The notes beneath the pieces are model-generated. The model was given only the letters and a program-made list of their open reading frames with translations, was not told the DNA's origin and did not search any database. A DNA stretch of 64,000 nucleotides from assembly GCA_024811115.1 (NCBI GenBank), contig JAKOGH010000649.1, positions 1 to 64,000 on the forward strand. Direction: 5' to 3'. A program made the position numbers and the translations under genes. Shown one piece after another: positions 1,927 through 35,462 of the stretch. This DNA comes from Terana coerulea. Lineage: Eukaryota; Basidiomycota; Agaricomycetes; Polyporales; Phanerochaetaceae. Position 1 is the stretch's first letter; each line of letters starts with the position of its first letter.

Positions 1927-2277
1927 AGCAGTCCGAACTTTCCGAGGGTTTCTCAGCGTTTCAGTTAAACCAGTTGAACCCATAGGCTGAGACCAGTCGT
2001 AATGAAGCCGTAAGCTTCGAGGACTGTTTGAGCGCCGTCTGCAGCAGGAGAAGCGGGCGTTGACAAATCTGAAGAGGGTGATCTGAAATCTCGATCGCCG
2101 ATCCATCTCACGTGCACAATCACGCCCAAGCCCTGTCACGTTTAACGAGCATTGACATCACGGCGACCGTGACAACTCGTGCAGAGAGGCCGCCACCGTG
2201 CTGAAATCGACGACGACAACGCTGCCTTTCGATTTGAACACTTCGCACTACTATCTGTTCACTCACACACTATCTTC

Positions 2278-4055: not shown

Positions 4056-4531
4056 GACGAAGCTCGGGCTCGTCAAGCTCGTGTCGAATATTTCCGGAGC
4101 TTGGATGAAAATTACAGGTTAAAGAAGGAAAATGTCTATGTTGTATGAGTAAAGTATTTGTATTAGATGTGGTATTGTGTTACGAAGGACTTCCGTGAAG
4201 TCGCATATCGTTCATTTGAGTTATCGTTTTGTACTATCTTTCTTTGATATTATTGTAGCACCTGAGTGTCAAGTCTCGATATTTCTGTGCATGAATTTTT
4301 ATAATGGGTTTCTCAAACTGGACACAACAGAAGTAGTAGGGTTGCACTTGGGTTGTAGGACATGCTACTGTATGAGTGATAGGCCGACAGCAGACTTCAA
4401 CATTTTCTAGCCGCCAACCTGGTCAGCCTAATCGGGAGAGGTTCGGAGTGATCCGTACCACCACGACTTCCTCCTCGCGCACTCCAAGTGCGAAACGCCT
4501 TCCCTCTTCCAACCCTGCCGGCTACCAAACG

Positions 4532-5590
4532 ATGCCATTTAATCTACCCGGAACGCTAGTTCCTTTGCATCTAATCATTGCACCGCGCTTGGTTGTCCCT
4601 TCAATGGTCGTTCGAGGTCAGTCCGTTCCCCAGCTCACGCGCCTGAAAGTGTACAGGAGGTTGAGTGCGTAATTACAGGAAGATATCCGCCAGCTTGATT
4701 TTATTGAGCTACGAAAGGCTGGATATAGAGGTGCTGTGTTTGACAAGGATAATTGTCTGGTGAGTCGCGTCTTTTGGCAATATCTACAAACTACTGACAT
4801 GGAACGCGTCGAAGACTGTGCCGCATAAGGATCAACTCGTTCCCGAATTGAAGGTGCGTCGCCATACGCGTTTGCTCATACCTACAAACTGAATGAGAAA
4901 GTATAGGAAGCATGGCAAGAATGCCGAGACGCCTTCGGTGAAGGGAACGTTCTCATAGTCAGCAATTCTGCAGGAACCCGCCTTGACCCTGGGAAATCCA
5001 AGTACGCGTCCATTCACATTTTTATTTGTCCAGTACTCTCAACGCTAGCGTTCTAGGCCGAATCCGTGACATATCATCTGGTTGCGCCAGTCCTCCGTCA
5101 CAAAGTCTTCAAGCCGTCGTACTCCTGCATCTCTTCCATCCGAAAATACTTCTCATCACTACCAGCTCCTGTGCGCGATGACGAACTTATAGTGGTAGGC
5201 GACCGTGTCTTCACCGACGTCGTCATGGCCAATCGCATCTCACGTCGCCGGTCATCGCCCACCACCGACGTGACAAGCATAACGAGTCTCCAATCCGAGA
5301 AAGAAGGGGAAGCAAGCACCGTCACAGTCCCTCAGCCGAAGTCTGCGAGGGACGGGCCTCTTTCGATCTGGACAACGGGAGTCTGGCAGCGGGAAAGTAT
5401 GGCGATGCGATATCTTGAGGCAGCGTTCGTCAAGGGTGTGCGAAAATATGTCGCCGACAGCAACGGTGTCGCGATACGTGGCGAGGATCCTGGTCGTTTC
5501 CTCAAGCATGAGATTGTCGAGGAGTTACCGAACGTACAACCACGGGCGTCGCTACTTCAAAAGCTGTGGAGAAGGGTACGGAGATCATAG
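4532..5590 (+). CDS. GEP4: Mitochondrial phosphatidylglycerophosphatase GEP4
   Basis: Gep4 removes the phosphate from phosphatidylglycerol-phosphate on the matrix side of the inner mitochondrial membrane, in cardiolipin synthesis. The start MPFNLPGTLVPLHLI is typical of the family. Exons give DIRQLDFIELRKAGYRG, the HAD nucleophile motif FDKDNC, VPHKDQLVPELK, VLIVSNSAGTRLDPG, HKVFKPSYSC and the acidic HAD motif VVGDRVFTDVVMANR. Four short introns are needed (about 4617-4673, 4758-4817, 4853-4907 and 5003-5057). The tail after the HAD core is long (WTTGVWQRESMAMRYLE onward), making the protein larger than the 185-residue yeast enzyme. Such extensions are common in filamentous fungi. Catalytic residues are intact. 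Confidence 0.92.
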
Positions 5591-6436
5591 AGTTCTCGTT
5601 ACGGTACTGTCCTTTTCAAAACTAAACTGCATACGTAGAACCTGACAGCATCTGCGTAGATTTTGACTTATAGACATTTTGTGACATCCCCACTCAGATG
5701 ATTCCATGAATGACACTGGTTCTGTCGTAACTTACTTCGTGCCACCGCCAATCCGCGTCCGTAAATTATCGTGCACAAGCCAGTCGACTCGCTCTGTTCC
5801 TGCATCTCAGAGCGACGAAGAACCTGGCGGTTCCCATCAGAGACGGCGCCTACCGCGGACTTAGAGTGGCATGCAGCAAGACTACCCAGACAACTCACAG
5901 GTCAGTCGTTGAACCATCGATATTCAGCGTTGATACCTTGGATCCAGATGACTTCTGCGGCTAAAGACAATGCTTTCTCCAATCGACGCGTCGTCACACC
6001 GCATAGGACCATCCACGTCGTCGAGGGCGGCTCCATCAGGAACAAAGCGTTGGCCTTGATGGCATATCTTGCACAACGCTTTGTCCCGGCATGCGTGGTC
6101 CCTCACTTCCGGAACGAGTTTCTAGCCCCTTAACAAATGTCCTGTCGGTAGGCTATGTCAGACGACTTCGTGGCTGCTTGGAGGCCTGCAGCACGCGACC
6201 CTATCTGGCGTTTTGGGCGACGCCCCCAAGTGTTTCAGGTACGCATCCACGGTCAAACTGAGAAGTGCTGAGCTAAAGCACGACCTCATGTGCGATTCTA
6301 AGAGGCCACATACTGGTTTGTCTTTCGTCGACAGCCACTGACCACCCGCTTGATGCGTGGCCCAAACAAAGGTGAGGGCTATCGCGCGCAGATGCTCGAG
6401 GGAGGACCACTAGGCTACGCGCTGGCTCGAGAGCAG
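5591..6436. other. Intergenic stretch with only weak open frames
   Basis: No recognisable gene. A plus-strand frame at 5771-6133 (120 codons, containing RTIHVVEGGSIRNKALALMA) and a minus-strand frame opposite it both look only mildly coding. Neither has a recognised domain or a supported start. Confidence 0.4.
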
Positions 6437-6444
6437 TATATATA
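6437..6444 (+). promoter_or_regulatory. TATA box of the 6555 gene
   Basis: TATATATA lies about 118 bp before the ATG at 6555 and is followed by a pyrimidine-rich leader (CTCTCGCCCTCG), the usual layout of a strong fungal promoter. Confidence 0.5.
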
Positions 6445-6554
6445 CTTCCTCAAAACCGACTCTACCGCCATCTTCTCGCAGCTCGCAGCTCACAGCTCTC
6501 AGCCCTCAGCACTCTCGCCCTCGTTTCCACAAGTCCAAACACACCTCCGTCGAT

Positions 6555-7182
6555 ATGGTGAGTAGCATCTTCGGGCAGCTACGGCCTTGAGCTGAAATTA
6601 TTATCAGATTTACGATTCCAGTTCTCTGACGGATGGCTGCCAATGCGACATGGGTGTCTCGCAGGTCCCCGTGTTGTCCTGCCATTGGGCATCTCGCTAT
6701 GTGGACGGAGAATTGAAGAGATATACTACCGATGACTGCGGGCGCGAAGGGTGCAAATCCTCCAGCTTCAGGCGCCGGAAGTACTGGGGGGCCGGCTATG
6801 ACGACAACTCCGAGTCTGGCGGCCTTTCCCAATCCAAGCCTGAGGTCGAGCCTGTTCAGACCAAGAGGAAAGGCGCAGACAACCTCGACGGCGGCACCTG
6901 TCAGCAAGAAGCCCAAAGACCTCCTCGGAAGCGACGGTGTCGACCGAGCAGCCGCAGGCTGATCGCAAAGCCCAAGGAGCAACGCGGGTCCAACGATGCC
7001 TCTGCGGCGACTTCTTCGAAGAAGACCAAGCCCAGTGACATACCTGTGGTACGGACTCCCCTCACTGGACTGCTCAGAATTGTGCTGATCAACGTTCTTT
7101 ACGCTAGCCCCCTCCAATTATCGCTTTAGACATCGATATACTGGCCATGTCGCGTAGTATGAGTACGGCTCAGCGCGACTGA
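6555..7182 (+). CDS. Small basic protein of unknown function; ATG isolated in its own exon
   Basis: The ATG at 6555-6557 is followed directly by GTGAGT. Splicing at the AG of 6606-6607 joins it in frame to 6608 onward (IYDSSSLTDGCQCDMGV). The protein has an N-terminal Cys/Tyr-containing part (about 60 residues, with CHWASRYVDGELKRYTTDDC) and then a Lys/Arg/Ser-rich, probably disordered half with basic clusters such as PPRKRRCRPSSRR that could act as nuclear localisation signals. A last intron from about 7048 to 7109 (with GCTGATC as branch site) would give the end PPPIIALDIDILAMSRSM and stop at 7182. Unspliced, the frame stops at 7129. Family not recognised. Confidence 0.5.
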
Positions 7183-7638
7183 ACGAGCAAACACTGTCTG
7201 TATATTGTTGACTGTTGATTAGACGCACGTACACTGGATGGCATTCTCTTATACATCTATGTTGGAATTAAATATGTCGGCGCACAGTACATTGAGTGAG
7301 GGTGATGCACCATGCGAACGTCAAGCGGAGCACTGCTTGCTAGCAGCGTTACGTAATGCAGCCGCGCAGGTGGCCATTTGACGGTAAGCGCCCTTGTTTT
7401 TATCTTGACCACGATCACTTCAAGTCTACAACAACAAGGCATCATGGCCAATGCACGCAGACTCCGCTGTCAACGTGCACAAACAGAGCTGCTCTGCGAG
7501 CTGGGGCGTATTTCAACCTTTCTATCCTCGACAGGCTTACGGACAACATCCCCGTCCCTGTGAGACTCGTTCTACTACTTCGCTCGGTTCCTCCGGCCAC
7601 CCAACCTACCACGTTCGCAATTAGCTCTGTTCTTAACC
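7183..7638. other. Intergenic region before the kinase-like gene
   Basis: No gene is supported here. The stretch probably holds the promoter and leader of the kinase-like gene starting at 7639. Short overlapping frames on both strands lack recognisable motifs. Confidence 0.35.
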
Positions 7639-8424
7639 ATGGCACGCGAGTTGCTCTTTTCAGCCCGTATGCTTGACGAATCGCCCCACAGAAATCGAAG
7701 AGGTCCACTTATTCTCCATCTGCTGATTTGCTGGAAGGAAGATGGCCAGTTCTACCTAGTCGAGCATCCTCCCGGCGACTTCGACTTGCAAACGTTAGCA
7801 GCCCCGGAACCAATTCCACACGCGCACCTCTATCCACGATGGCGCAACGGGCTGAAGGAGGCTCCACCCCCTTCCTCCCGATTGTTATGTGAAAATCCCC
7901 AACATTACCCACTATTCGCCTTCACACCCGGATTTTCTACCCGCTCATCTCATGGCGGAAATTGGAATAATCGAAGAGCTTTCGAAGCATCCGCATCCCA
8001 ACGTATGCTCATACCACGGATGCGTAAGGAAAGGAGACTACGTTGCTGGCATCGCCATGACGCGGTACCGACACTCACTGTACGATGCGGTCAAGGCTGG
8101 CGTCCGAATCGATCGGCGTCGCGTAGTGGCAGACATAAAGGCTGCTCTTGAGCATCTTCACGGTCTGGGCTTTGTGCACAACGACTTGTCACCGGGGAAC
8201 ATCATGCTCGACCACAACGACTCGGCAGTCCTCATCGATTTTGATATCACCGCAAGGATAGGAACCACCAGGGACGCGAAGTAGGCACCCCAGGATGGTT
8301 CAGGCCCAACGCAGAACAGGTTGTGCGTACCGACGACGACAACTTTGCCTTGGGATTGCTACCGGAATATTTGAACACGTACCTGAATTATCATCCTGAT
8401 GATGAGTATTCGGTACGTGCGTGA
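7639..8424 (+). pseudogene. Protein-kinase-like gene with frame breaks
   Basis: The start ACCATGG at 7639 has good context. The N-terminal part reads LILHLLICWKEDGQFYLVEH. After a frame change near 7860-7890 comes a kinase C-lobe: CYVKIPNITHYSPSHPDF, HPHPNVCSYHGCV, then LHGLGFVHNDLSPGNIMLD with catalytic Asp and Asn in place, and DFD where active kinases have DFG. A stop (TAG at 8282) interrupts the frame just before GTPGWFRPNAEQ in the next frame. One missing G at 8280 would explain it. The family is common in mushroom genomes, usually as small Ser/Thr kinase-like proteins. Either a real pseudogene or two assembly indels; the HND and DFD variants leave activity uncertain. Confidence 0.6.
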
Positions 8425-8515
8425 TAAAACCTCTGGCGCTGCTGTCCACTGACGTAAATTGACCTTTCACATATAGCCAGATGCGCCCACGTCCTCCGTA
8501 GATGACTATGTACGG

Positions 8516-8973
8516 ATGAAAGTGTTGATCTGCGGCACCGCTCATGGGCTCGAGAACGCTTGTGACACACTCTTGAATCTATTCGGTGCGATATCCACGA
8601 TCTTGAAACCGAAGACGCGTAACTGACCACACTTCTCTCAGAATCTTGGGCTACAGTCACATTCTTGGTCAGAGACAAAAGTCGCTTCCAGAACACCGCA
8701 TGTTTTGCTCCGTTTCTCGCGAGTAGCAAGGTACAAGTCGTAGAGGGAGACTTCCATGACCACAAGGACGTCGAACATGCATGGTCGGTAGCGGGCGCCG
8801 GACTTCGAGAGGGCGAAGTCGACCTTGTGTTTATCGCAACCAGTGCGTAACTCTTTCTGCGTGACGTCTCCGATAGCTTGTCTCATGTACGTGGCCTAGG
8901 CTATGATACTGAAACTAGAGAAGGCGAGAGATCGTTCCAACTGAGGCTAAGCGAGCGATACGTGCGCCCATGA
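8516..8973 (+). CDS. NAD(P)-binding (NmrA-like) Rossmann protein, apparently truncated
   Basis: The start MKVLICGTAHGLENACD resembles the first beta strand of a Rossmann fold, although the glycine motif is degenerate (GTAHG). Splicing about 8585-8641 joins ESWATVTFLVRDKSRFQ, then SSKVQVVEGDFHDHKDVEHAW and VDLVFIATS, which match beta strands 2-4 of NmrA-type NAD(P)-binding proteins. A second intron (8843-8899) leads to only about 24 further residues before a stop at 8971-8973. Full members run to about 250-300 residues, so this copy is either truncated or frame-shifted. The next coding-like segment (8925-9438) starts in another frame and may be its detached 3' end. Confidence 0.5.
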
Positions 8974-9438
8974 TGCACGTCTGGTCCGACCCCGAGACCC
9001 GACATGTAGAACCTTGGCTCGTCGTGGCCAAACTTTCCGTCTGGAAAATCGCACAATATCTCAAGGCTGAAACATCTCGCTTGGCACCAGTGCCGGCACG
9101 AGAAAGACGGTTCTCCCAGCGACGCTTCTGCCCCCAAACTCGTGAAGGTCGTCAAGGAGAGACTTCGCCCGGCAGAGCGACTGCTGGAAGGCGCACCGCC
9201 GTGCACGGTGGCACCTGGGCCCAAATGCTATAGAAGGGTGGCGCTCTTGCAGCTTACGGCGGAGACCCCCGATACGCCACCTGCCACAGTCTCGGAATTC
9301 CTTCACACCTTAGATGTCGGTCATCTGAAGTCGTGGAAAGAGGCGTGGGCGGGGCGCAGGAAGACGTCGAGGAATTGGACAGAGGCACAGTCGGGGATGT
9401 GGCTCGAACTGGATGAGTTCCTGGCGGCACGCCAATAA
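8925..9438 (+). pseudogene. Coding remnant, possible 3' end of the preceding gene
   Basis: Two overlapping frames look coding. The first is EIVPTEAKRAIRAPMMHVW to about 9090. One base away, about 9095-9438 reads KDGSPSDASAPKLVKVVKER, with HLKSWKEAWAGRRKTSRNW near the end and a stop at 9436-9438. Bringing them together needs a one-base shift near 9097. No domain is recognised. Lys/Arg content and codon use look like real coding sequence rather than chance. Confidence 0.4.
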
Positions 9439-20128: not shown

Positions 20129-23100
20129 TCACATGGCCGCTTCAGCAGTCTTCTCGTCTCGTGGTGGCGGAGATGAGGACGACTCTGCGGGTTCTTCCTT
20201 CTTTCGCGGCGGGCTCTCGCCAGCGACGGTATTCAGCTGTGCCGACATCAGAGCACGGAATCTTGAGCCTTCGCGGTTCACCTGTAAGAGCATCAGGCTC
20301 GATATCCTAGTCGATGTCACAAATATAAAACGCACCAGTTGCCGGTAAGTTCCACTTTCAGTGATGTGACCCTCTAAGAACAGAAAATGAGTCGGGGCTG
20401 CACGGCAGGCATAGCTGGCACGAACCTTCCAAGACTATGATCCTTTCGGCGCGAGCGATTGTGGATAGACGGTGGGCGACGATAAGGCATGTTGTTTGCC
20501 TGGACCGAAGGATCTTATCAATTGCATCGTTCACCTAAGGAGCACGGGTAATAATGAGTAACCTCTTCGTGGTACGGAACGGTGGTTTGTACTTACCCTA
20601 TGCTCGGACGTCGCATCCAATGCACTTGTCGCCTCGTCGAGCGCAAGGATGGCAGGCTTCTTCAACAACGCCCGCGCAATAGCGAGGCGCTGCCGCTGAC
20701 CGCCACTCAGACTCATCCGACCGACTGCGAGCAACCTCTCGTAAATATGATGTCTGGCAGTTCAAAGGGCCACCACTCACTTTCCGTATCGAAGCCTTTC
20801 GGCATGCCCCACACAAACTCGCAGTTCGCCTGTCGAGCGGCGGCCTCGATCTCTTCCCGAGTAGCGGTCTCGTTGCCGTATGCAATGTTGGACGCGATCG
20901 TGCCAGTGAAGAGTACAGGGTCCTGCCGAAGTACACGTCAATAGCAAGTTCATAACTTCAGCTGTAGCGGGACGTACTTGAGGAACGACACCGATGATGC
21001 TGCGCCATGACGTTGGGCTGAACTCCCTGATATCTGCGAAGACGTTAGTAAGATTGACTTAATACAGATGTGGAAACCATACCTTGACCATCATACGTGA
21101 CCCGACCCTTGATAGGGTCGTAGTATCTCAGTAGCAGCGCGTTGACAGACGATTTGCCACTGCCGCTTCCACCTCTGTAAGGTAGGACATGTTGGTTTAA
21201 GTATATCCCAGTATCGAGAGCGAAAGAAAATAGGTAACATACACGAGGGCGACGCTCTCGCCGGGGTTGATTTCCAAGTCCAGGTCCTTGAGCACGGTAA
21301 CCTCCCTACGGGACGGATACTCGAAAGTGACTTTCTCGAAGCGGATGGATCCTCTGCGGGAGGGATCGATCGGGATACCAACGTTTGGATCGATCACGGG
21401 CGTGCGTTCAATTAAGTCGAATATCCGCATGCCGGCACCTATGCCACGCATTATGGAAGACTGCTTTTCGGTGAGATCACAAACGCTGCGAACGCGCGAG
21501 ACAACTCACGAAGAATCCTCTGCACAGGTACGAGTCAGGGAATTTAACGAGAAAGATGGGTGTGTCGCACGTACGTCAAGGTTTGAAGACCACCCCGACG
21601 TAGACGGTATAGAGCAAAAGACTTGTCAAGTCGCCGACAGAGATGGCTCCTTGGCTGACCAGTGTGCCACCTAACGTTCAGTTAGCTGAGTTGTCGTGCA
21701 CGACTGCAATGACCTCTCACCATAACCCAAAAGAGCCAGGAGTGTCACGTTCCCACTCCAGCCAGTGCTACCAAAGAAAATACCACTAGCGACAGCTTCC
21801 TTTCTCGCGAGGCCGAACACGTGCTGGACCTTACTGCCGAACTTGTCCTCTTCAGGCTTGTGAGCATTATACGCTTGAACGGTACGCAAAGCGGACAGCG
21901 ACTCCTGGGCGACCTAGAGGGCGCAAAGAATGTTAGAAACGCTGAGGCAGAACGGTAGAGTAACAGTGCCTTGGTCATGTCTCCGAGAGCTTCTTGTGTC
22001 TTGTTAGAGAGCTTCTTCAAGTATCGACCATAGAATACCTGTGCGTAATGTTTAGTGTGTTGCTCGGTGCAAGCTGTCACAATGTACTCACAGCGCCCAA
22101 AGACACAGGTGGAACCACAGCCAGCATTAAAAGAGTGAGCTGTGGCGAGATGTAGAACATTGCACCGACTTGAAAATCGATCCAGTCAGCTGATGCATCG
22201 AGAACATGACTTGAAAGGCCACATACGTCCAACAGAAGCCATAATGATCGATCGTAGACCGTCCGAAAGGTTGTTCGTTACACTAGCACCTCACGTCAGC
22301 CAAGTCAGCGATTTGAGGCAAAGAATATGAGGGTCAGAGCAAACCAAAGGGTCTTATGTACTCACCTTTCCCCAACAATACTTGAGTCGACGCTCAGCCT
22401 GCTGATGACATCGCCCTCGCCTCGTTCAACGAACTCGACCTCTTGTCGTAATGCTGCACTGTATGTACGTTCTCTGAGCCGAGCGACTATCCGTTGACCT
22501 ACAAAATATTCGGTTAGTGACTGAGACGGACATTGCCCATTTCAGCAAGAACGAGGAGATATTAGACGTACCTGATATCCGCATGAGCGTGGCACGCCCT
22601 GCATTGGCAAACGCTCCGACCGTGAACATTAACAAGAGAATGGCAGAAGCCTGTCCGAGAGTGAGATCCAGAGGTATTTGCTGGGTAACAGGCTCAGAAA
22701 TTTCATTTTGACAAGGATATACACGATACTCACAGGATTAGTGGACGTAAAGAAATCTATCAGTTTCCCAATCGTGAACGGTATGCTCATGGACACAGTG
22801 CTTGAGACTAGCAGCAATCCAATCGCCATGCTCAGAGGCTTCTTCTCCGGTTTTGCCAGCGCAACTATCGAACGGAAAGACGACGCGCTTTTGGCTGAGT
22901 CTCCTCCCTCCACCGAAGGCATCAGTCGGGACAAGATGCCGCGCTTTGGTTTCGGCTTCACTGTGGTAGCAGCCGGCCTCGGCACCGGTGGCTTGTCGGA
23001 TATCTGAGACTCCTCCAACTTCCGGGCTGTTGAGGATATCCATCTCCTCTGTGACAACAGCTCTTGAAGTCGTGGGGGTGAGGCCGTGTGACCGCGTATG

Positions 23101-23237
23101 CCGGCGTGTACGCCAGTGTGGAACGGCCTCCATAGTACAGAGACTGTCTGTGTCGGCGAGCATTGCCGCAGTATATGAGGGCTATGCAGAGGCTTGAGTC
23201 TCGAAATCGCCCTCGGATACACCGAGAGCAAGGACAT
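20129..23237 (-). CDS. MDL1: Mitochondrial inner-membrane ABC half-transporter (MDL1/ABCB10 type)
   Basis: Half-transporters of this type export peptides from the mitochondrial matrix. The start [19 protein letters not shown] opens a basic, Ser-rich presequence of about 100 residues. The six-helix domain begins with [20 protein letters not shown] and [10 protein letters not shown]. The nucleotide-binding domain has [11 protein letters not shown] and the Walker [10 protein letters not shown] (about 21160), then [32 protein letters not shown], the ABC signature [18 protein letters not shown] and Walker [14 protein letters not shown] (about 20640), and an H-loop in [16 protein letters not shown]. 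The tail is a short Lys/Glu/Ser segment. At least ten small introns are spread over 3.1 kb. All catalytic motifs are intact. Confidence 0.92.
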
Positions 23238-23565
23238 GGTGGCGGAAGACGGAGTGCGGACGACGCGAGTAGTCTCCCCGAGGCAGACAGCGAACACAGC
23301 GGGTCAACCTGCGCTTTGGGCTACGGATACGCTGTTAAGCGTCTGCTACTACCGGGGCGGGTGGTTGCAGGTGTTCCTGTTTGATCCCATCATATCATCA
23401 CGTGCATTCATCAAGCTGTGTTTGTCGCGTCCGACGCAGTCGCGACTCAGCTGCGCCGTGCTTCACTTCTGTACAGAGGTGCCCATTATGCATAGGGGGG
23501 AGTGTCATGATATATTTAAGAATGCGTGAGGGATTAGTGGGTGGCTCTTCCACATGCCTTATAGG
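23238..23565. other. Upstream region of MDL1
   Basis: No gene. Probably the MDL1 promoter on the minus strand and the 3' flank of the gene to the right. Confidence 0.35.
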
Positions 23566-24227
23566 TCAGTGTGGGCAGAGAACAGCGCACCGCACACACC
23601 TCAAGATATAGTATTCACCATGGGTCTGTCTCGCTACAACATGACCTACCATCCTGCTCAAGCGACTGAATTTTCGCAGCCTATTCAAGGTCTCATCATC
23701 TCTAGCCGTACAGCCGGGGTGAACTGGTGTGCCCTGCTTGTCTGATTGCCCTAGTAGCAAGAAAGTGTAAAATGACGACAGCGTCGCAGAGAGCATAGGA
23801 GAACGACCTTTCCCGCAGCATAAAAGCCCAGAGCCAGATGATGAAACGGCCGAACGATGAGCAGCCTTCGCGTGTACGGCATCCGAGATCCTGTTGAAAG
23901 GATTGTCTTCTGAAGCCTCTGAGTCGACGTGCGGTGGTGGCGAAGGCTGAGGTGGAGGAGAACCTGGTCGGAAGTCACCAGTGTATAAGGTGTAGACGCC
24001 GTCCTGCAGGTCGAAAGAGCCCTGCATGGTGGGGGCACGACAAGAGCAGAGCGAGAAATGCATAGGAAAACGCGGGAATATTTTTGGGCGTCTAACATAC
24101 CAAATCCAGCGAAACACGTCCAAATCCGGAACACCTCATACGACCCCCGCGTCAAAATACAGACTAGACGCGAGCACTGCTGCCGCGGTGGACTCGGGTC
24201 GCCCAACTCCGACTCGCTCGGCATCAT
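23566..24227 (-). pseudogene. 3' part of a host gene cut by the 8.2-kb element
   Basis: From the ATG at the complement of 24225-24227 the frame reads MMPSESELGDPSPPRQQCS and TRGSYEVFRIWTCFAGFG. An intron of about 80 bp (GTATGT at about 24103 to CAG at 24026) follows, then SFDLQDGVYTLYTGDFRPG, a Pro/Ser-rich linker and AVSSSGSGLLCCGKGRS. The gene is unrecognised. The transposon starts three bases upstream of this ATG, and the matching upstream piece lies beyond it at 32401-32561, in the same frame across the target site. The 3' part could still be transcribed from the terminal repeat, so loss of function is likely but not certain. The stop at 23566 may lie beyond an unrecognised intron. Confidence 0.5.
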
Positions 24228-24229
24228 AC
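24223..24229. repeat. Left target-site duplication ATCATAC
   Basis: A 7-bp direct repeat identical to 32401-32407, touching the outer ends of the two terminal inverted repeats. Confidence 0.85.
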
Positions 24230-24614
24230 TACGGTTGACGAGACGTCCGAGGATGGATTTCGTTTTGATGCACCATCACTCGCGCCAAGCGCCTGATGGG
24301 CGCTCCCACGGCTTGGTCCGCCCGACCGAGGCCTTACTCTGGAATTGGAGTGTGGTCCTTGTACCTACCTATAGCTACAGCTCAATGCTAGTGGAATCGA
24401 GAAAGCATGGAGCAGAGGGAGCCCAGAGTCTCTCGAAAGGTCGAAATCCGAGGTTTGCTGGCGGGCGCTAACAGCCGGAGGTAGCCGGGAATTGATTGAT
24501 GAGCGAATGCGGTAACTTGACGATAACAAGCCCGAGATGATCTAAGTTTGGGTTATCTAGCACGTGAGCCCTCGCCCTCCGCCACGCCACATCGAGCTCG
24601 CGCTCGTTGTTCTC
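24230..24614 (+). repeat. Left terminal inverted repeat (385 bp)
   Basis: Matches the reverse complement of 32017-32400 almost base for base, starting TACGGTTGACGAGACGTCC and ending CGCTCGTTGTTCTC. Differences are a few substitutions near 24281-24287, 24417 and 24571-24573, plus single-base indels, several in short homopolymers. Confidence 0.9.
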
Positions 24615-24822
24615 TAGGTTCGGTAGCGCCCGCTGACGTGCTCAAACCGCACGCCAGCGAGGTGAACGCGAGCGGTTTGGATCAAAGTCCGGGAAAGCCG
24701 AAGGGGTCTGCAGGGTGGCGATCGGTAACAAACTGGGTAATCAATCATTTCAAGCAATTTGTAGTCTCGATCACAATGCTTGTTATCCGCTGTATGTTGA
24801 CTTCGTATACATCCTGTCTGCC

Positions 24823-27248
24823 ATGTCGGAACAACCACTATGTCTACGCCTCCCGTCCTCACCAATAACAGACATTGTTAATTCTACACCGAGACGGCAC
24901 AAGACTCCTCGACGTGCCACTGTACCTCAAGCCCCCAAGAACAAACAACCTCCGTGGCCACGGATAGGTAGAACTGTCCCAGACAGTGCCATAATTGAAG
25001 CTACCGAGGACATTTTTGGATACGCCCCCCGGCCTGCACAGCTCAAGGCGGCTACAAAACTCCTCGAGGGAAATAACATCTTTGTTATTGCTGCTACTGG
25101 CTTCGGGAAGTCACTGGTATTTGCTTTGCTCGCCATAGCAGCAAAGCTCTGCGGGTTCAAGGGACAATTCTTGTCATATGCCCTTTGAAAGCCTTGCAGC
25201 TCGATCGGGTATGCAGCTCGATGATGTTTGTAGTATAAATGAATGACTTACTACTATGCATGTTAGGTACATCGCTTGAATAATCCAAGGGGCCGACAGC
25301 CCGGGAAGATAGCTCAGCGGAGGCCGGCCCTTGTGCAACACCAACTGACGAGCCGGACGAAATACCAGAGGAACTGGTGTTTGCAGACACAGACGACTTC
25401 AACCCCTTTAAGCGCCCGGGAACCCTTGGAGCCTACAGAACCATGCACTTCGTCATCAACACAGCCTCAGACTACGAAAACCGCTTCACATACCTGCGGT
25501 TGCAGTCAACAAGGACCACAACGACCGCAACTATTCAAGAAGATTCGCCAGCGGTGACTTCGGGCTCATATATGCCAGCGCCCGAGTGCCTTCTTCGGAA
25601 CAACGGCTTCAAGCAGCTGTTCCAGTACGAAGACTTCAAGGCGCTGCTGTACGCTATCCCTGGTGGACGAGGGCATGTCATTAATTCATGGGGCAAGGAT
25701 TTTCGGAGGACTACACAAACCTCAGTGTCCTGAAGGTTATCTCCGGTGTTCAAGTTCCATGGGGCGCCTTCACTGCCACTGCTCCGACCCACGTCTTTGA
25801 GGAGATCTTCAACTTGCTCGAGATGGGGTTGCATCGGCCATTCTGGGGTATTGACCTAGGAGCCGATCGCCCTAACCTGGCGCTGTGGGTCCGACCAATG
25901 GAGTTCGCCCTTCGGTCCTCACGCAGCATTGTTTGCATTAGTGCCAGAGTCGCCCAGTGTTGCAGAAGACCTACCTAAGACGATCTTCTACTTCAAGAGT
26001 CGGAAGCAGGCGCTGTATCGCATGCGATCTTCTTCGAGGGCTCTTGCTGGCGTCACTCAAGAAGTGCTTGTACGCGTTCACGGCCATATACTCCGAAGAG
26101 TACAAGACCACCGTCATGGATTGGTTTCGGACTGGGAAGGTGCGCTGGTTATTCTGCACAGACAGCGGCAGGAATGGGTTGCAACGTACCAGATATCATG
26201 ATGTCGGTCGTCTACGGTGTACAAGACTTCTGTGCCGCAATGCAGAAAGGCGGCCGAGCTGCGCCAAGCAGTGACATATCGGGGACAATGCTGTGGCTTG
26301 TTGAGGACTGGGTATTTGACAGCTACAGCGACTCACTTGTGGCATCTGGCAAGAAACCTATTGCACCGGATTCTCAAGCTGGCAAGACCCTCGCAAATCG
26401 ACGAAGCGCACTGGATCCTGCAACACGAGAGTTTGTCAGGCGCTTCACAATCCAGCGAGTGTATGCGCGCGTACATGGTGGACTACTTGCGCCCGCAACC
26501 TTCCCTCCCTGGCTTTCCAAGGCCAAGTGGTGCACCAAACGATGAAGACGAATGTGCAGCTCATGGAGTAGAGTGGGAGGTAGAAGAAGTGACGAAGAAA
26601 CCCGCGGTCGGCCTTTGTTGTTCGGCTCAGTCGTGCCGTGCGAATCCATCGGAGTCTATAGGAACTCTCATTGATGAGGAACGGCGCCGCATTCAAGCTC
26701 ATCAAGCCTTCCTTCAGAGAGCCTCTCATCCCTCCCTCCCCATTCCCGACATGTCATCTCAAGGTGAACAAGAAATGCAGCCGCCATCGAAGAAGATTCG
26801 CGTTTCTGCCGAAGAACGCGAGATACTCTTCAAGCCCTACGACATTGGCGCTGATGTACAATGGTCCATGGTCAAAGCGCGAAATCCCTTCCTCTCTTGC
26901 GACTGGGCTATAAGCGACGAGAACATCTCTCGCTTGGTCAATGCAGCTCACCGCCTGGTCAACGCAGACACTCTCACCCCCAAGCTTGTTCGGCAACTTA
27001 TAACATGGACCTCTCCCGGGGACTCAATGTCCTCTCTTCTCGACTGCCTCGCTGGAGTTTGTCTCTGCATTCAACTGTCGCACACAGAAAACCCGCAAGT
27101 GTGTCAATACTGGCCCAGCAACTGTTGCGACGCTGCTCTCTGCAGAGCCAGAAACACCTACTCGCACTCGTCGCGAACCGGAACATGCTTCCACTGCCAT
27201 CGGATGAGAATGAATCACCAAGGTGTGTCTGGTCACTGGCAGCTATAG
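24823..27248 (+). pseudogene. RecQ-type DEAD/H helicase of the transposon, decayed
   Basis: The start MSEQPLCLRLPSSPITDIV is the best ATG. Helicase parts in order: APRPAQLKAATKLLEGNNIF, Walker A AATGFGKSLVF (about 25091-25123), CPLKALQLDR, NGFKQLFQYEDFKALLYAI, motif II region at 25654-25680, HVINSWGKDF, the TATAP motif III segment at about 25770, AEDLPKTIFYFKSRKQAL, the helicase C strand YSEEYKTTVMDWFRTGKVRW, and QKGGRAAPSS in place of the QxxGRxGR motif VI. Fragments occupy all three plus frames, with shifts near 25165, 25655, 25675, 25715, 25900 and 26180. At motif II the expected DEAH appears only as DEG in one frame and GH in another. A Cys-containing C-terminal region follows. Inactive as written; some shifts may be assembly errors. 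Confidence 0.75.
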
Positions 27249-27612
27249 TCCTGTACTGTTACTGACACTCACCCTTAGACATGCTCGTATTGAGCCTCTG
27301 CGGTTTAGCCCTGCAGCTGGTCAGAGAACCTTTTCGCAGGGCACTGCATGGCAAGCCAATAGTACACCATCTACCGGGCAGTGCCACAGGATCTCTTTTC
27401 CACAGAGCCTGGGCCATCTAGCTCTCGACTATCGGTACCAACTGGCGAGACATCAACATATGATACCTTTTGGGTGTCGTTCGCGTGGCGTAGCCAGTCT
27501 ACGTTCATGAGTGGGCTTACTGGCAGTATGCAGGCAGAAGGTGTTGACGAGAGTACAGTAGAGGCATCAGAATTAATGCGAATAGATATAACATAATGTA
27601 CTTAGTGATAAT

Positions 27613-30412
27613 CTAATCATCCCCGCTTTCTGTCGTGATATCTACATTAGAGAAGGGACACTCGTCTGCAAATTCAGGATCGAGGCTCGTGTCTACGGCC
27701 ATTACACCATTTGGGTCATCAAAAACAGTCTCCGTGATGATTTCATCTGTAGCATCATCCTCGAGATCCATTGCTGCATCTGCATCGCCACCATACAAGT
27801 CCGTCCCTCCTTTACCTGACCGAGCCATCCAATGATGGAACATGCGCTTCTCTGTGAGCATCTTCATTCCGTCACGCAGGACATCTTTCACGGCCGTCTT
27901 CTGCTCCTCAGGTGTCCAGGGTTTCTTTCCTTGCGCTGGCTTTGGAGCTTTTGCAAGAGGCACACGACGCTCTCTTTGAAACTGGTGGATATGTTGTCCC
28001 TTCAGGTTGGCACATAGGGCTTTGATGTCATTAATGACACTGACTTCTCGATGTCGGCGATGGTGGTCGGTAACACCGAAATAAGTGGTTACCTCTTGCG
28101 CTGAGGGCTTGAAGGACTTCGACACATGCCGAGGACTTCCGTTGTACGTGGTCCATTGTTGCGCAGCTATCCATAGCTGTGAACATGTTCGATATCATCT
28201 GTGAGTTAATAACAATTTACTTAGACATATACAATAGTACTGCACCTTGGTAAATCCGTTGTTATGCTCTAGATAGAGATCTGTGGGTATAGATCTTCCT
28301 TTCTTACCCCATCAGTTGACTAACCATGTCCGGCTCAACAATCTCGCCCCAGTAGAGGTGGGAGCTCATGCAGCGAATTGGGCCTTCATTTCGAGAAGCT
28401 CGTTTCCGTAGTTGTGGCAGCCTGCTCCACGCATCATGAACAGCCAGAATGTATATACAGTCCACATCCGGCCGACATCAGCATCATGGACTGCACAGTC
28501 GAATTCTTCGAAGATAAGCGCATCTCGGAGGAAGAATATAGCATGTGCAAAGACTTCATCACCACTGTCGAGCTGTGTGTCCGGCTTGCGTAGTTGTGTC
28601 ACGTCTCCGAAGAGTTTTGTGACTACGATGTCAAACTCCTTGGGCGATGGCTTCCAGTGCCTGAGATCTTCAAGGTTGTCGTATCCAAGTAAGATCCTAC
28701 GTGCAACTCCAAGTCAACTATATCCCAAGCGAAGCACAAAGAGAACTGCTTACCGAGTGCAGTCAAGGATGCAAGCTATCATAGAATGACGTAACAGCTC
28801 CTTCGCTTTGTTGTACTCTGGCTTCGACGTGTCGAGCTTGGCCCGTCGAAGTAACTTGCGATGATGCTCTAGGCTGCCGGGATCGTTGTCGTGGGTATGA
28901 CCAATATGTGTTGAACAGCATATACATGGCGTTGAGCTGAAAGTGAAAGGGCATTGCAACCTCCTGCACCCAGTCCATACGCTGAAAGCTCTTGAACTCA
29001 TCTGCGCGTTCCTCCTTCATCGGCCGAAGGTTTCGGATTGTGAGCCAATCGCCAACCATAAGGCGAATCTCAACATCGACCACTTCTTCAGCAAATTTGA
29101 GCAGTTCCGTGAATATCCTTGTAACAACTTTGATTGTCCCCGAAACTGAAGCTTCTTCCTGATCCAAGGCAGGGAGGGAAAGAACTGCGTCTTCTCACTT
29201 GAGCACACGGACTTTGGGCTTCAAGCGCTTCGTGTGCTTCTGTAGGCGTGTCGCTGTCGAGACTTCTTTGCAAACCCCGGGGAATGAGCCAGGAGGATTG
29301 CTCGGATATTGTGCTGGAACGACAAAGCCAGCTGCGCCTGCTCTTCCTCAGTGGGGCACAACAACTCTACTGTCATCTTACGTCGAAGACCAAAAAGCTT
29401 CAGCGTTCTGAGATAGAGAGAAGCGGCCGCATATGCACGGCGCGTGAAACGGCCGAGTAGTGAGAAAACGGCTGACATCGTAGCATTTAACTGCTGAGTA
29501 CAGTTGTCGAGACGCTGAGACGCTTTCGAAGGGTGAAATTGATATTATCGTAGACGACTGCGAAAGGCGATCGGGTAGTTTACAAAACAGTCGTGCCCGC
29601 TCCTTCGCGATTCTCGGATAGTTGTACTAGGCACCGCTGTATAGTACTATAGGCAAGTATGAGTCTACTGACATTAGACGAGAGTGTATGCAGCGCACCT
29701 GTAGCTTACACACAATGCCATGTGGTGACAGGTGTCCATAACTCGCCGGCTGGCACCGGCGCTGGCTAGAAATACACCAATAACGAGCTGGAAGGCGTTG
29801 GTCGCTCGATTGTGGGTGAAGAGAATCATACTAACAATAACAACGATGATCTGTAATGATTTAGCCTGAGTGCAAATACACGGCAGAGTGATGGACGCAC
29901 GGGATGGCCACCTCTCCCTTCATTGCCTTTTCGACACCTTTCTTCCTCTCATAGTCATTCTGCGCCCGTGAGAGCTGTGTTCAAGATGATCCAGAGACAT
30001 GGGAGAAGCAAGTGGTAGAGGTTCGCGAGAGCTTCAGGCCAAAATCCTCCGTGAGATAGGGAATGTCGAGCTTGTTTGACGGCAGAGCCAGAGTCTTGTG
30101 GTGGGGCGGCACTAACAGTCTCTTCGGCTATGAATCCAGCCACTTTCTCGGTCAGCAAACTGACGCCAAGTGAGGCTGGGAGTCGTCGCGGCGTGTTCTT
30201 GATAATGGACTCGAGTAATACCTCGGTAGGATACTGCTGGCCTTCGACGTATGTCAGGCTGCGTGTGGCCTGGGATGTAATGGTCGGCTCGTCACTGTTG
30301 TAGAATGCGTTGAGAAACTCGTTGAGGAGCGCCATTTGTTCTCCTTGACGGCGGTGAGGACGCCCTTAAGCTTGTCCCGTTGCCGATGCTGGGAGGACTG
30401 GTTGGCGGACAT
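27613..30412 (-). CDS. DUF6589-domain protein of the transposon
   Basis: DUF6589 is an uncharacterised domain found in many copies in mushroom genomes. Visible family blocks from the N-terminus: MSANQSSQHRQRDKLKGVL (ATG complement of 30410-30412), NEFLNAFYNSDEPTITSQA, MILFTHNRATNAFQLVIGVF (about 29790-29850), LMVGDWLTIRNLRPMKEER (about 29010-29065), VQEVAMPFHFQLNAMYMLF, SKPEYNKAKELLRHSMIA (about 28780-28835), then DADVGRMWTVYTFWLFMMRG with AGCHNYGNELLEM (about 28395-28490), and an Asp/Glu-rich C-terminus ending DITTESGDD. Several introns are needed and one base seems missing in an A run near 30335. Better preserved than the helicase. A mobility role is inferred from its place in the element; no catalytic triad could be picked out. 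Confidence 0.75.
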
Positions 30413-32016
30413 GGTGGTGCATAGACGAAGAGACGAAGCCAGATACTCAGAAAGCGCGAGACAAGTAAGCAGGCAGATAATAAATCACATTGATGGCATT
30501 ACAAACACGTTGTAATGAATTTGTATGCAAGCGTCACCCTGCAGACCCGCCCGGTTTACCGGACTTTGAAACAAGACCCTTCGGACTAGCCCTCAGGGGC
30601 GCCAGAAGGGCTCTGGCACGAGACTACGTTGTTCTCAACTGTACAGCCTGCCTTCTGCGGCGTCTCCTTCACTACGAGTACCTTCATCCACAGGCTGACC
30701 TGGCAGGCACCAAGTGTTGCTGGTGCCTCCCGATTATCTTGCTGGCACTCCTCGCCCTTCCCTATACCGTTGGTACGACCCGGAAGACCTCACTTGCTTG
30801 CAAATGCATCGCCACTCTCGGACCACCTGTCGATCAGGACCTACAGGAAGTCACGGGAGGATATGGGGGTTGTCGGCTTGATGGTGCCGGGCTGTGAGAG
30901 GTTCTTATAAACGGCCAGTATGTCACCCATGTCCCCTCTCTCTTTGCGTCGCTGTTCATGGCTGGGCTGTGCTTGCACGGTTCACGGACAACGCTTCCTT
31001 TTACTAAATTGTTTCTCTTTATTATTAGATACACACTTTACCCGCTATCGCCGCTGCACCACCATACGTCGGTCTTGCAGCTTACCTACCTCCGTCAGGA
31101 TGTTACCCGCCAACACAGTCTTGTCAGCATTCAAAAACAAACCTGCAGACCACATCCCGTCTACTGCGTTCTCAAGACAGCAGGAACCTCTGGTTGTGCG
31201 CATGCAACGGCTTGAAGAGCAGATGGTAGTGCCTTGGGCACACTATACCCGTCAATGCTCGTGCAGTTGTCTGCCGCCTCTCAGCTGGCAAGTGGTGTCA
31301 GCGTGCACTGTGCAATACTATACTGTAGGTGTGAATTCCGTGCCGTGTATGTCCACGCCAGTGTCACTGTAACTTCTGTCACCCCATGTGCTGCGCACAG
31401 TCCTGGACATTGTGCACCATGCCGTGTAGTTGCTCTTCTCTGTTCCATTTAGCAGGCCCTCATGTGTTCTCTTCATGTCCAGCTGACCTGCTTGACATAT
31501 TATGTGCTGAATGTTATATTATATTCTATCAATAATAATGTCTGCTCTGCTCGCAGCCCTTTTGGAGTAAGTAAATATATGTATATGAAGTAATACATAT
31601 ATTCTACTGTGTCTATGTCTGGGCTAGAAGGGACAGAGCTGACACCAGCCTAAATGTGTGTCAGCTGAGCTCTTATTAGAGGCACAATGCCACCAAGTTG
31701 ACTTGTTACAGTAGGGACAGCCTGGCTTGTTGCAATTGTGTGCTGTACAGGGATGACCCACTCTGCGCACATTCCCGCTCTATGCACATGGTGTCTATTT
31801 TACGGTGGTGCATCACTGGTTTTCACCTCCGAAGTGCCGTGAAGCGCCAATATTTTGGCGGGGGACATGCGTAGAGTGGGAATGTGCATGGAGCGGTTTA
31901 TCCCTATATACGTATATACTATTTGACATGCATCAACACAACACAAAGGGGGTAAATGCAATATGACAAAGGCATGGCGAGGGAATTCAGGGGACACCTC
32001 CAAGTCTGGCACCATT
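30413..32016. other. Right internal region of the transposon, mostly non-coding
   Basis: A plus-strand frame at 30493-30897 (134 codons, Cys/Leu-rich) has no recognisable domain. The rest lacks coding character. An imperfect inverted repeat of about 29 bp pairs 31762-31790 (CACATTCCCGCTCTATGCACAT) with 31868-31896 (GTGGGAATGTGCATGGAGCG) and might be a subterminal protein-binding site. Confidence 0.4.
31762..31896. repeat. Subterminal imperfect inverted repeat
   Basis: Arms of about 29 bp at 31762-31790 and 31868-31896 share the core GCACATTCCC and a CTCTA(C/T)GCA tail, 77 bp apart and about 120 bp inside the right terminal repeat. Nothing similar was noticed inside the left end. Confidence 0.4.
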
Positions 32017-32400
32017 GAGAACAACGAAGCGCGAGCTCGATGTGGCGTGGCGGAGGGCAGGGGCTCACGTGCTAGATAACCCAAACTTAGATCATCTCGG
32101 GCTTGTTATCGTCAAGTTACCGCATTCGCTCATCAATCAATTCCGGCTACCTCCGGCTGTTAGCGCCCGCCAGCAAACCTCGGATTTCGACCTTTCGAGA
32201 GACTCTGGGCTCCTTCTGCTCCATGCTTTCTCGATTCCACTAGCATTGAGCTGTAGCTATAGGTAGGTACAAGGACCACACTCCAATTCCAGAGTAAGGC
32301 CTCGGTCGGGCGGACCAGCCGTGGGAGGCGCCCATCAGGCGCTTAGCACAGTGATGGTGCATCAAAACGAAATCCATCCTCGGACGTCTCGTCAACCGTA
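32017..32400 (-). repeat. Right terminal inverted repeat (384 bp)
   Basis: Reverse complement of the left repeat, ending CGTCAACCGTA at 32400. Confidence 0.9.
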
Positions 32401-32407
32401 ATCATAC
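32401..32407. repeat. Right target-site duplication ATCATAC
   Basis: Identical to 24223-24229 and immediately outside the right terminal repeat. Confidence 0.85.
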
Positions 32408-32561
32408 CACGTGCGATGACATAAACTCTGCCGCTGTACTGTAAATGTTTTATGCATGAAGCTCCTTCAAGTTTACTGATTACATAAAGACTTAACGAAT
32501 GGATGATTTGCTCCACCAAGTCCACCTCGGCTACATAGTACGGGGTCTGGAGTCTAGACAC
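32401..32561 (-). pseudogene. Upstream exon piece of the host gene interrupted by the transposon
   Basis: A minus-strand frame without stops runs from 32561 to the insertion point and reads TPYYVAEVDLVEQIIHSLSL, LEGASCIKHLQYSG and RVYVIARGM. Removing the transposon and one ATCATAC copy joins ARGM directly and in frame to MPSESELG at 24227. Further upstream the frame hits a stop unless an intron acceptor (TCTAG or CCAG near 32545-32560) is used, so this would be an internal exon. A second mobile element begins two bases away. Confidence 0.45.
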
Positions 32562-32562
32562 T

Positions 32563-33119
32563 TAAGGCTCCAACCATATAGTTTATTTACCATTTATAAA
32601 CGTTTACAACCATTTACATTTACCATATATTTACAACAAGGGCTGTAAATGACCCTAAACAGTTTAGTACACAGTAAATAAATGGTTCTCTTGAGGGCCA
32701 GCAAGCAACCTTTGGAAGTGTCAAGAAGGCATATGAATGGTCTATTATCATATTCTATAGTCTGCTCTATGTCCAACATCCTTATGCGCGGCACCAATGG
32801 CCACCTGCCTCCCGCCTCCCGTGGTCCCGCCGACCATGTCACACATGTGACAGTAATTCACCCAGCACCGCGAGAGCGCCGAAAGCGTCGAGACTTGCCG
32901 CTGCCTGCAGATCGACTTTCTCGCCTGTCTTCAGGGCCAGAATCCTCGGAGGACACCTTAAAGTAGGACCGGAAGAGCTACAGTGTACGCCGAAGCAGTC
33001 TTGCTGGCTTTCCCCCGAAACCATATATTTACTGTGTATAAACTGTTTACAACCATCTATTTACCATATACCATTTATTTACACAAAAAGTAAATGTAAA
33101 CTAAATGGTTGGAGCCTTA
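32563..33119. mobile_element. 557-bp non-autonomous TIR element (Mutator-like)
   Basis: The ends TAAGGCTCCAACCAT and ATGGTTGGAGCCTTA are inverted repeats that continue imperfectly inward through AT-rich TTTACCATTTA-type units (about 32590-32700 and 33010-33100). A perfect 9-bp duplication CTAGACACT lies at 32554-32562 and 33120-33128. Nine-base duplications and extended inverted ends fit Mutator-like elements. No transposase is encoded. Confidence 0.8.
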
Positions 33120-33190
33120 CTAGACACTAGATGTTAGAACTTTCCAGACCAAAAGAACAAAGCCTAAACATTCCCGGCTAAACAAGGGCA

Positions 33191-33274
33191 TGCCCATTGG
33201 CTGGATTGAACAACCGACCTCACCATGTACAGTGCTTATACGAGTGGCGCGCTCTACCACTGAGCTAAACGGGC
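33191..33274 (-). tRNA. tRNA-Thr(CGT) with a 12-nt intron
   Basis: Read on the minus strand: acceptor arm GCCCGTT pairing with AATGGGC, D arm GCTC-AGTGGTA-GAGC (A box TAGCTCAGTGGTAGAGCG), anticodon stem CGCCA with TGGTG, loop CTCGTA plus A carrying anticodon CGT, T arm GGTTG-TTCAATC-CAGCC (B box) and discriminator A. The loop is interrupted one base 3' of the anticodon by TAAGCACTGTAC, the standard position for nuclear tRNA introns. Mature length is 72 nt before CCA. Confidence 0.85.
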
Positions 33275-33841
33275 AGTGGTAAAGGGTCTCGCTAATACAA
33301 CATCACTCCAAAGTGCCTCCGCCCACCCTTGAATCGCCTCAATTATCATGGCAGATCTGGCCTGAAAGCTTGGCTGTCTTTACTGCAGAATTACTATCTG
33401 AAAAAGATGCCTTAAGCCTACTCAGATGCGCACCACCAGATGGGGCCGCAGACTTGCAATCACTTGGGGGTGTCCCCTCGACAAAGTGTCGGCACGCGCT
33501 TGAATTGCACGGCTTTTCGGCGACACGTGAAGGAGCTCAGTCACACCATGTCACGCACTGTGCAAGGACGCGCTGCCGCCCAGGACGTGACAGTGAGTTG
33601 TACTCGAAGCTCCCTCTCCCTTCCTTCCTCTTCTCCTTCCCTAACCTATCCCCAGACCTGCGCGACGATTGGTTTCATCCATCGCATACCTCGCTCATCT
33701 CTGCTACGTATACATCCCGTGTATTGTGACCATTTGAAGAAAGCAAGCTACTTCTCGTTCTCCCGGACCTTGACCATTGGCCACCGCCCATTGTACCTGC
33801 GCCCGACGACACTTCCCCCTCTCCTCAATACAACACCAACA
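33275..33841. other. Promoter region of the first orphan gene
   Basis: No gene is supported. Pyrimidine-rich tracts (CTCCCTCTCCCTTCC near 33610) are typical of fungal promoters. Confidence 0.35.
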
Positions 33842-34650
33842 ATGCGAATTGACCAGGACAACATCATTCATTGGGCTGCGAACGCGCAGAACGCGTCAGA
33901 TGCTGTAAGTCCTAGTCCTGTCTACCCTAGTTGTAACCCAACTACGGATGTGGCGAGTATCAAGTTCTCATCGCATATTCTCAGATCCTAGCTTTCGACA
34001 AAGACTCGCTTCTCCCAACGGAACTTGGCTTTGAGGACCCGCAGAGCATGCAATGGTTTGCGTTATCCCCCGCGTTCCCCGAGCTGTGTCCGACGCTGTC
34101 CAGCTGCCCTTCCGAATCGAATGTGGCCATCCAGGAGAGAGACATTCCCGAGTGCTCGCTTGAGGAGCTTTCCCTCTATTGTGAGGCTATGTCCATCAAC
34201 CCGTTACTCTTCGACCCCTCGCTCCTCCACCTCAGAGAGGACATGCACACGCCAACAGTCATCGACGGCCGCAGGCGAGTCCTCACGCGAGTCGAAGCGC
34301 CCGAGCTCAACTACGAGGTGCTCGCTACGATCCGTCGCATTGAGCAACAGCTCTATCCCCTGCCCATGTCCAGCTGGATCACTGACTACGGTGAGGAGCA
34401 CACCTCAGCATTCCTCGTGGGTTCCTCGTACATCATGCCGCCACCTTCTTCCCCACCCACCCCCCGACGGAAGACAGTCGCCCTGCCGTCCATAGAGGAC
34501 CCCACTTTCGACAGCCTTTCAGGGTGCTCGCTCGAGCCAGAGGACGCTTCTGAGCCGGGCTATGGCCTACAGCTCTACAACGAGTTCGATTCCTACGAGC
34601 GTTTGCCCCCACTCCTTTCCGAGCTCGACCATATGCCCTGCTTCGCATGA
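33842..34650 (+). CDS. Orphan protein A (local family, intact member)
   Basis: The ATG at 33842 (MRIDQDNIIHWAANAQNASD) is followed by an intron (GTAAGT at about 33905 to CAG at about 33986) and one long exon: ILAFDKDSLLPTELGFEDP, SLEELSLYCEAMSINPLLFD, YEVLATIRRIEQQLYPLP, a Pro-rich segment, and a C-terminus with PGYGLQLYNEFD and ELDHMPCFA. Predicted length is about 240 residues, mildly acidic, without signal peptide or membrane segment. No family recognised. Its C-terminal box resembles the end of orphan C (PGYGLRLCYDDD and HLACF), suggesting local duplication. It may be a transcriptional regulator-like acidic protein, but nothing in the sequence proves that. Confidence 0.55.
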
Positions 34651-35462
34651 TCGTCAAGGCGTCCTCAAGCCCACCTAGCGGCCGTGCCATTCTACATCTC
34701 CGCTAATGGGATGGTGAAGAGTGGTCACATTCGGCAGTACGGTTTGACAATTACGAGGATAACGACAGGCATGTGGCGTGCGCGGTTACGACTCATCTGG
34801 AATTGTATTTGTATTACTCTTACTGTATTTTGGAGGATATTTGGTACAGGTTGTGCGCATTTCACCATTTCTACACTGTACTTTTCACTGAATGCAATTG
34901 TAGATTTATTTCTCATTTATCCATAGCGTCTCTGTAGTATTACCCGCTCTTGTGGATTGCTTCATATATCATCGGCTTATTCTGTGCACATAATTGGATT
35001 CAATAACTCGGAGGCCTTCTTGGTATGAGCATGATATAAATTCATTGAAATGACGCGAACATGGTGATATGTTTGTATAACGGAAGGAGTCGCCTCAAGC
35101 GCAGGGCCCACTCATGCTTGCAAACAGTGACTTAGTCGTTTAGGCCCTAACACGCACACAGGTCGCGATGTGGCGCAGAGTCCCAATTTGTGCGTCGGTC
35201 ATCGTACAACGTCTTCTACGTTCGCACAGCTTGGCCAAGGGCATTAGGCTTTGGAATCGTTTGGAGCGCGCCTCGCACATATCCGCTCGCAAGCCGCGGG
35301 TAGTGGCCACACATGCAGGAAAGGCAATTCGCGTCGTTATGAACATCATTTTTGGTAGAGGGACAAAGAACTATGAAGCTGGGGTTCAGTTAAGGGTGGC
35401 CATCTGAGCAACACTGAAAAATACTGTGGCCTCCGTGTCATAGTCCCGCATAGCCCAGCAAC
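34651..35462. other. Intergenic region, no gene seen
   Basis: AT-rich from 34800 to 35060. Short frames at 35140-35407 on both strands lack coding character. Confidence 0.4.

Follow-up and report, generated by a model that had tools for sequence, protein, structure and literature searches.

A RecQ-type helicase gene and a DUF6589 gene share a bounded fungal transposon in which DUF6589 is a candidate DDE transposase

The locus raises the question of whether a stretch of about 8.2 kb carrying a RecQ-type helicase gene and a DUF6589 gene is a mobile unit and, if so, which protein moves it. The stretch lies in a window of 64,000 nucleotides of Terana coerulea DNA; below, C-numbers denote contigs of the same assembly and L-numbers loci fetched from them. 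The transposon comprises 8,171 bp (window positions 24230–32400), has the ends TACGGTTGACG and CGTCAACCGTA, and is flanked on each side by ATCATAC, a perfect 7-bp target-site duplication at 24223–24229 and 32401–32407. Its terminal inverted repeats are located at 24230–24614 (plus strand, starting with TACGGTTGACGAGACG) and at 32017–32400 (minus strand). They measure about 383 bp each and are identical at 377 of 387 aligned positions, with 5 gap positions.

Joining both window flanks and searching the assembly with them yielded contig C4, in which the 223 bp spanning the junction were 100% identical. The 5 kb fetched from C4 matched window positions 20999–23269 at 99.7% and 32401–35081 at 99.4%, and a single ATCATAC occurs at the position where the window has the element. 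Most likely, C4 represents the other haplotype or allele of the window site, the alternative being a recent duplicate of that site. In either case, a near-identical site without the element indicates that the unit moved whole. The original prediction of a bounded element at 24223–32407, with repeats of about 385 bp and a perfect ATCATAC duplication, was therefore borne out by both the repeats and the empty site, and the RecQ/DUF6589 unit was confirmed as a genuine mobile element. Inverted repeats, a duplication of fixed length and an empty site were all found, as in cut-and-paste transposons with terminal inverted repeats; excision is deduced from this type rather than from direct observation. 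C4 also lacks a second insertion of 897 bp (window 23270–24166; ends TAGTCTCCCC...ACAGACTA, 8-bp duplication GACGCGAG). Nine other copies of this small element had readable ends, five with 8-bp duplications, one with 6 bp and three with none, and in its TAGTCT ends it is similar to the DUF6589 elements with 9-bp duplications described below.

The left repeat had 30 matches in the assembly, the two in the window included. Fourteen places with such matches were fetched, of which 12 had a facing pair of ends and two (L043, L047) a single end. As read by eye, perfect 7-bp duplications, all different, flanked 11 of the 12 other paired copies, in line with the earlier expectation of further copies with duplications of this length; the remaining pair, on C524 (L046), had no target duplication. 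Eight short copies of 2.0–2.5 kb (L034–L041) consist of the left repeat joined to the 1.77-kb right part of the element (window 30627–32400, plus strand) at 94–97% identity, with additional gaps in L039, L040 and L041. All eight share one junction at a 10-bp direct repeat, CGTTGTTCTC, which is present on the plus strand of the window at 24605–24614 and 30627–30636 and marks the left and right breakpoints of the internal deletion. The short copies are 96.4–99.8% identical to one another and 96.3–97.7% identical to the window, and every one of them lies between 7-bp duplications of its own. The shared junction indicates that a single deletion of about 6.0 kb removed the part with RecQ and DUF6589 and that its product then multiplied. 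Losses of sequence between short repeats are to be expected when gap repair after excision is interrupted, and the deletion may have arisen in this way. Since copies with the same gene-removing deletion carry separate 7-bp duplications, a trans-acting factor presumably moved their ends. Left-repeat, DUF6589 and RecQ searches of the assembly (for RecQ, among the matches listed) revealed no further locus of either gene bearing the ends of the window element, so that the mobilizing enzyme of the short copies was not seen directly; the fetched copies sharing these ends contained no detectable DUF6589 or RecQ. Further families, with repeats 73–85% similar to those of the window, occur on C5 (L042), C335 (L044), C534 (L045), C510 (L043) and C524 (L046). 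The pairs on C5, C335 and C534 have 7-bp duplications, and five window pieces used as queries detected neither DUF6589 nor RecQ in the five families.

The original prediction placed a RecQ-type helicase gene and a convergent DUF6589 gene inside the element, and both assignments held. The helicase gene (approximately 24823–27250, plus strand, multi-exon or decayed) matched Pfam DEAD with 29.3 bits. Motif 0 (FGYAPRPAQ, at 25015), which is RecQ-like, motif I (at 25099) and motif VI (at 26243) are readable, and an apparent frame change was seen by eye near 26141, in motif V. The window helicase was absent among the listed matches to the RecQ model TIGR00614, and its RecQ character therefore rests on its motifs and its relatives. 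The DUF6589 gene (approximately 27616–30365, minus strand, multi-exon) matched Pfam PF20231 on two separate pieces with 72.4 and 92.2 bits; its landmarks are a first Asp, D1 (YDNIN), near 29549, a second, D2 (GDWLT), near 29053, FH near 28954 and LLE near 28410. By eye, a frameshift appears directly after D1, where the change of frame leaves no space for an intron, and the window copy therefore looks decayed. With apparent frame breaks in both genes, the same seems to hold for the element copy as a whole.

DUF6589 matches were found at 10 loci in the assembly. The RecQ search with TIGR00614 listed 32 matches on 20 contigs, with 40 of 51 candidates scored; scored exon by exon, every match, that of the best locus, C834, included, remained below the model cut-off. 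Among the matches listed, RecQ lay within 4 kb of DUF6589 at five of the 10 loci (C376, C282, C16, C366 and C508), and with the Pfam DEAD helicase of the window a RecQ/DEAD helicase lies within this distance at six; no RecQ match was listed at C278, C400, C788 and C728. Helicase motifs I, II, III and VI are present in C376, C366, C508 and C16. The two genes are convergent in the window and at C376, C366 and C16 and divergent at C508; C282 is rearranged, with two helicase halves on opposite strands. On C282 (10352–13580), the plus-strand DUF6589 runs into the C-terminal half of the helicase on the same strand, and the N-terminal half is on the minus strand. As a control, the listed KDZ and Plavaka matches occurred on 6 and 29 contigs, respectively, together 34 different contigs, and none of the 32 listed RecQ matches was within 10 kb of any of them. 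The only contig with both a listed RecQ and a listed KDZ or Plavaka match was C550, where the two are about 68 kb apart.

Of the nine other DUF6589 loci, five are bounded by 5'-TAGNCT...AGNCTA ends and 9-bp duplications, four of them perfect. The corresponding elements span 5184–11188 on C366 (GAGAGTAAG twice), 56224–64795 on C508 (AATGAGGGC twice), 26709–28540 on C728 (CGTAAATGG twice), 3439–9693 on C16 (AGAGCGCCC twice) and 1434–8971 on C376 (TGACGTCCG/TGATGTCCG, one mismatch). The ends at C376 came from inverted-repeat scanning and those at C366, C508 and C728 from comparison of copies. The TAGNCT pattern was set on these four, and C16 was found only afterwards by means of it. Assuming equal base frequencies, the chance expectation was 0.0004 for the ends at C16 and about 0.005 for the pattern with its 9-bp duplication summed over the nine loci scanned. 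No ends were found within the fetched flanks at C282, C278, C400 and C788; C400 lies amid retrotransposon-like frames, and C788 is degenerate. A blind inverted-repeat scan gave nothing convincing at C366, C16 and C282 and partial repeats with no duplication at C508. With the window, six DUF6589 elements are thus bounded; five contain both genes (window, C376, C366, C508 and C16) and the sixth, on C728, measures 1.8 kb and derives from the C508 family. That the gene pair recurs in five bounded units speaks for a required helicase rather than one that is just carried along. The prediction that RecQ and DUF6589 would occur together between shared ends was correct as to their joint presence between transposon ends at several loci and wrong as to the ends, which, wherever found at other DUF6589 loci, were TAGNCT with 9-bp duplications instead of those of the window. 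On C376 (L048), an outer pair of TAGNCT ends at 820–9148 with the 9-bp duplication GCGATAGAA/GCGATAGAC (one mismatch) surrounds the DUF6589/RecQ element, suggesting nested related elements. C508 also contains an inverted repeat pair of about 680 bp, 98.5% identical, to the left of the element (53890–54570) and inside its right part (63372–64049), with a 91% copy on C282.

In a tree of seven DUF6589 proteins, C16, C366 and C278 formed a strongly supported clade. Elements with 9-bp duplications occur both inside and outside this clade, and the window falls outside it with C282, C376 and C508; its branch is long and has no firm position among these. Going by this distribution, the 7-bp duplication is likely the derived state.

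An alignment was made of six DUF6589 proteins, each put together by eye from its exons. The Asp of the DN motif and that of [GS]DxxT are invariant in all six, as is the Glu preceding the second Asp, and [W/F]H follows [GS]DxxT in all five rows covering that part. The Glu of LLE is present in five of six proteins, with His in C508; two additional invariant Asp residues lie between the motif residues, and farther downstream follows another conserved Glu (LLQEH). The acidic positions thus appear to be conserved in a DDE-like order, with several candidates for the third catalytic residue: the LLE Glu, replaced by His in C508, the LLQEH Glu and the other invariant acidic residues. Judged by eye, KDZ proteins encoded in this genome show a similar succession of D, D, H and E. 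Comparison of the six-row alignment with two-row KDZ and two-row Plavaka alignments by hhalign, an insensitive comparison, found nothing, and a sequence search of the PDB gave three hits with a best E of 0.17, none of note. In a Pfam scan, all six proteins matched DUF6589 and no other family. AlphaFold2 modelled one 143-aa piece of the window protein with a pLDDT of 44.5, too low for a usable fold. Searches of viral contigs, GTDB genomes, plasmids and phages found no relatives of DUF6589. Given the residue order, the original statement that the element holds no DDE protein is probably wrong, as DUF6589 itself may be one; its proposal as a candidate mobility protein gained support from both the conserved acidic order and the recurrence with RecQ in bounded elements.

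We therefore favor, with a probability of about 0.75, a fungal cut-and-paste transposon with DUF6589 as the DDE transposase and RecQ as an accessory protein, AcademH-like or a close sister, with TACGG ends and 7-bp duplications. DUF6589 would be a DDE-type (RNase H-like) transposase that binds the terminal inverted repeats of about 383 bp, excises the transposon and inserts it at a target opened by staggered cuts 7 bp apart. The RecQ-type helicase, encoded convergently, would most likely be accessory, either separating strands or taking part in the repair that follows strand transfer or excision. As for its affinities, the transposon would fall within AcademH, the helicase-encoding kind reportedly assigned to the Academ superfamily by Kojima in 2020 (Mob DNA 11:15), or stand beside it as a close sister.

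The original prediction had named an assembly palindrome or a nested unrelated element as what would overturn it. In principle, the two ends could come from two helicase-less copies, with unrelated genes between two separate short elements. A palindrome is ruled out by C4, which lacks the element and keeps one ATCATAC, and either version is practically negligible since the near-identical C4 lacks exactly the element stretch, the single ATCATAC pair lies at the outer ends, the interior of the short copies is the right part of the window element, and 11 of the 12 other pairs have different perfect 7-bp duplications. We regard it as improbable that the TACGG ends are moved by another cellular transposase (KDZ, MULE or hAT-like), with RecQ and DUF6589 as passengers. 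A passenger role would fit the genes of the window, which look broken while short copies moved, and also the literature, which gives 8-bp duplications with long inverted repeats for a KDZ element and 7-bp duplications for hAT7 and Kyakuja. However, passengers would hardly recur as a pair in five separately bounded elements or keep a conserved acidic pattern, the listed RecQ matches avoid the listed KDZ and Plavaka loci, and the window's contig has no KDZ, Plavaka or MULE match among those listed.

That the DUF6589 elements form a DNA-transposon group of their own outside Academ, a RecQ-carrying superfamily with 7–9-bp duplications and a DUF6589 transposase, appears rather unlikely. Neither "DUF6589" nor the accession "IPR046496" occurs in any open-licence PMC paper, and "PF20231" occurs in an unrelated physics paper alone; yet the absence of a Pfam name from the literature says little. 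The 7-bp duplications of the window family are outside the range quoted for AcademH in PMC10045372, which gives 9–10 bp for AcademH, 3–4 bp for AcademX and a helicase for AcademH. On the other hand, helicase and 9-bp duplications coincide with AcademH in four relatives (C366, C508, C16 and C376), and AcademH is reported, in PMC10799480, at low copy number from Basidiomycota, Ascomycota and Mucoromycota. A related version, in which a separate superfamily of fungal DNA transposons depends on RecQ, has DUF6589 as its DDE transposase and has shifted its duplication between 9 bp (TAGNCT) and 7 bp (TACGG), is a tentative possibility.

If DUF6589 is the transposase, this Pfam family of unknown function would gain a candidate function and a link to RecQ-type helicases. 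The 8.2-kb element with its genes and a 2.15-kb deletion derivative share their ends and so form a natural pair for a transposition assay, and the two kinds of element raise the question of what determines duplication length while gene content stays constant. As PMC6416283 says of Academ, RecQ-type helicases of transposons can pass for host genes in fungal annotation.

Helitrons also encode a helicase; the window element, in contrast, has inverted repeats and a target duplication, and the window pieces scanned with Pfam had no Rep/HUH match. MULE/Mutator elements have long inverted repeats. Their duplications are given as 4–10 bp, but the window pieces scanned had no match to MULE PF10551, for which two matches, one over the cut-off, were found on other contigs. 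KDZ elements (Kyakuja, Dileera, Zisupton) are likewise fungal, some with long inverted repeats and 7–8-bp duplications. They differ in that none of the six DUF6589 proteins has the KDZ domain PF18758 or a profile match (by the insensitive comparison above), and in that KDZ matches are on six other contigs, where none of the listed RecQ matches comes as close as 10 kb. Kolobok duplications are TTAA. None of the 12 window-family duplications, 12 different 7-bp sequences, contains TTAA, and the window helicase is convergent rather than downstream of the transposase domain, whereas a RecQ helicase in a fungal DNA transposon is shared with the fungi-only KolobokH, which carries RecQ according to PMC9587614. 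The closest likeness is to AcademH, described in citing papers as the helicase-encoding Academ lineage of animals and fungi; fungal Academ copies are stated to carry DEAD/recQ_fam domains (PMC6416283). It shares the helicase beside the transposase, found here as Pfam DEAD in the window and as TIGR00614 matches below cut-off at C376, C282, C16, C366 and C508, and its quoted 9–10-bp duplications agree with the 9 bp of C366, C508, C16 and C728 and, with one mismatch, of C376. The original prediction knew of no named superfamily with such content; AcademH, however, is named in print, and C366, C508, C16 and C376 fit its description as quoted. The window family differs in its 7-bp duplications and TACGG ends, the comparison with AcademH being one of descriptions rather than of transposase sequences. 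On the basis of helicase and 9-bp duplications, we provisionally class the relatives as AcademH-like; the window family, with its 7-bp duplications and TACGG ends, is then a probable variant.
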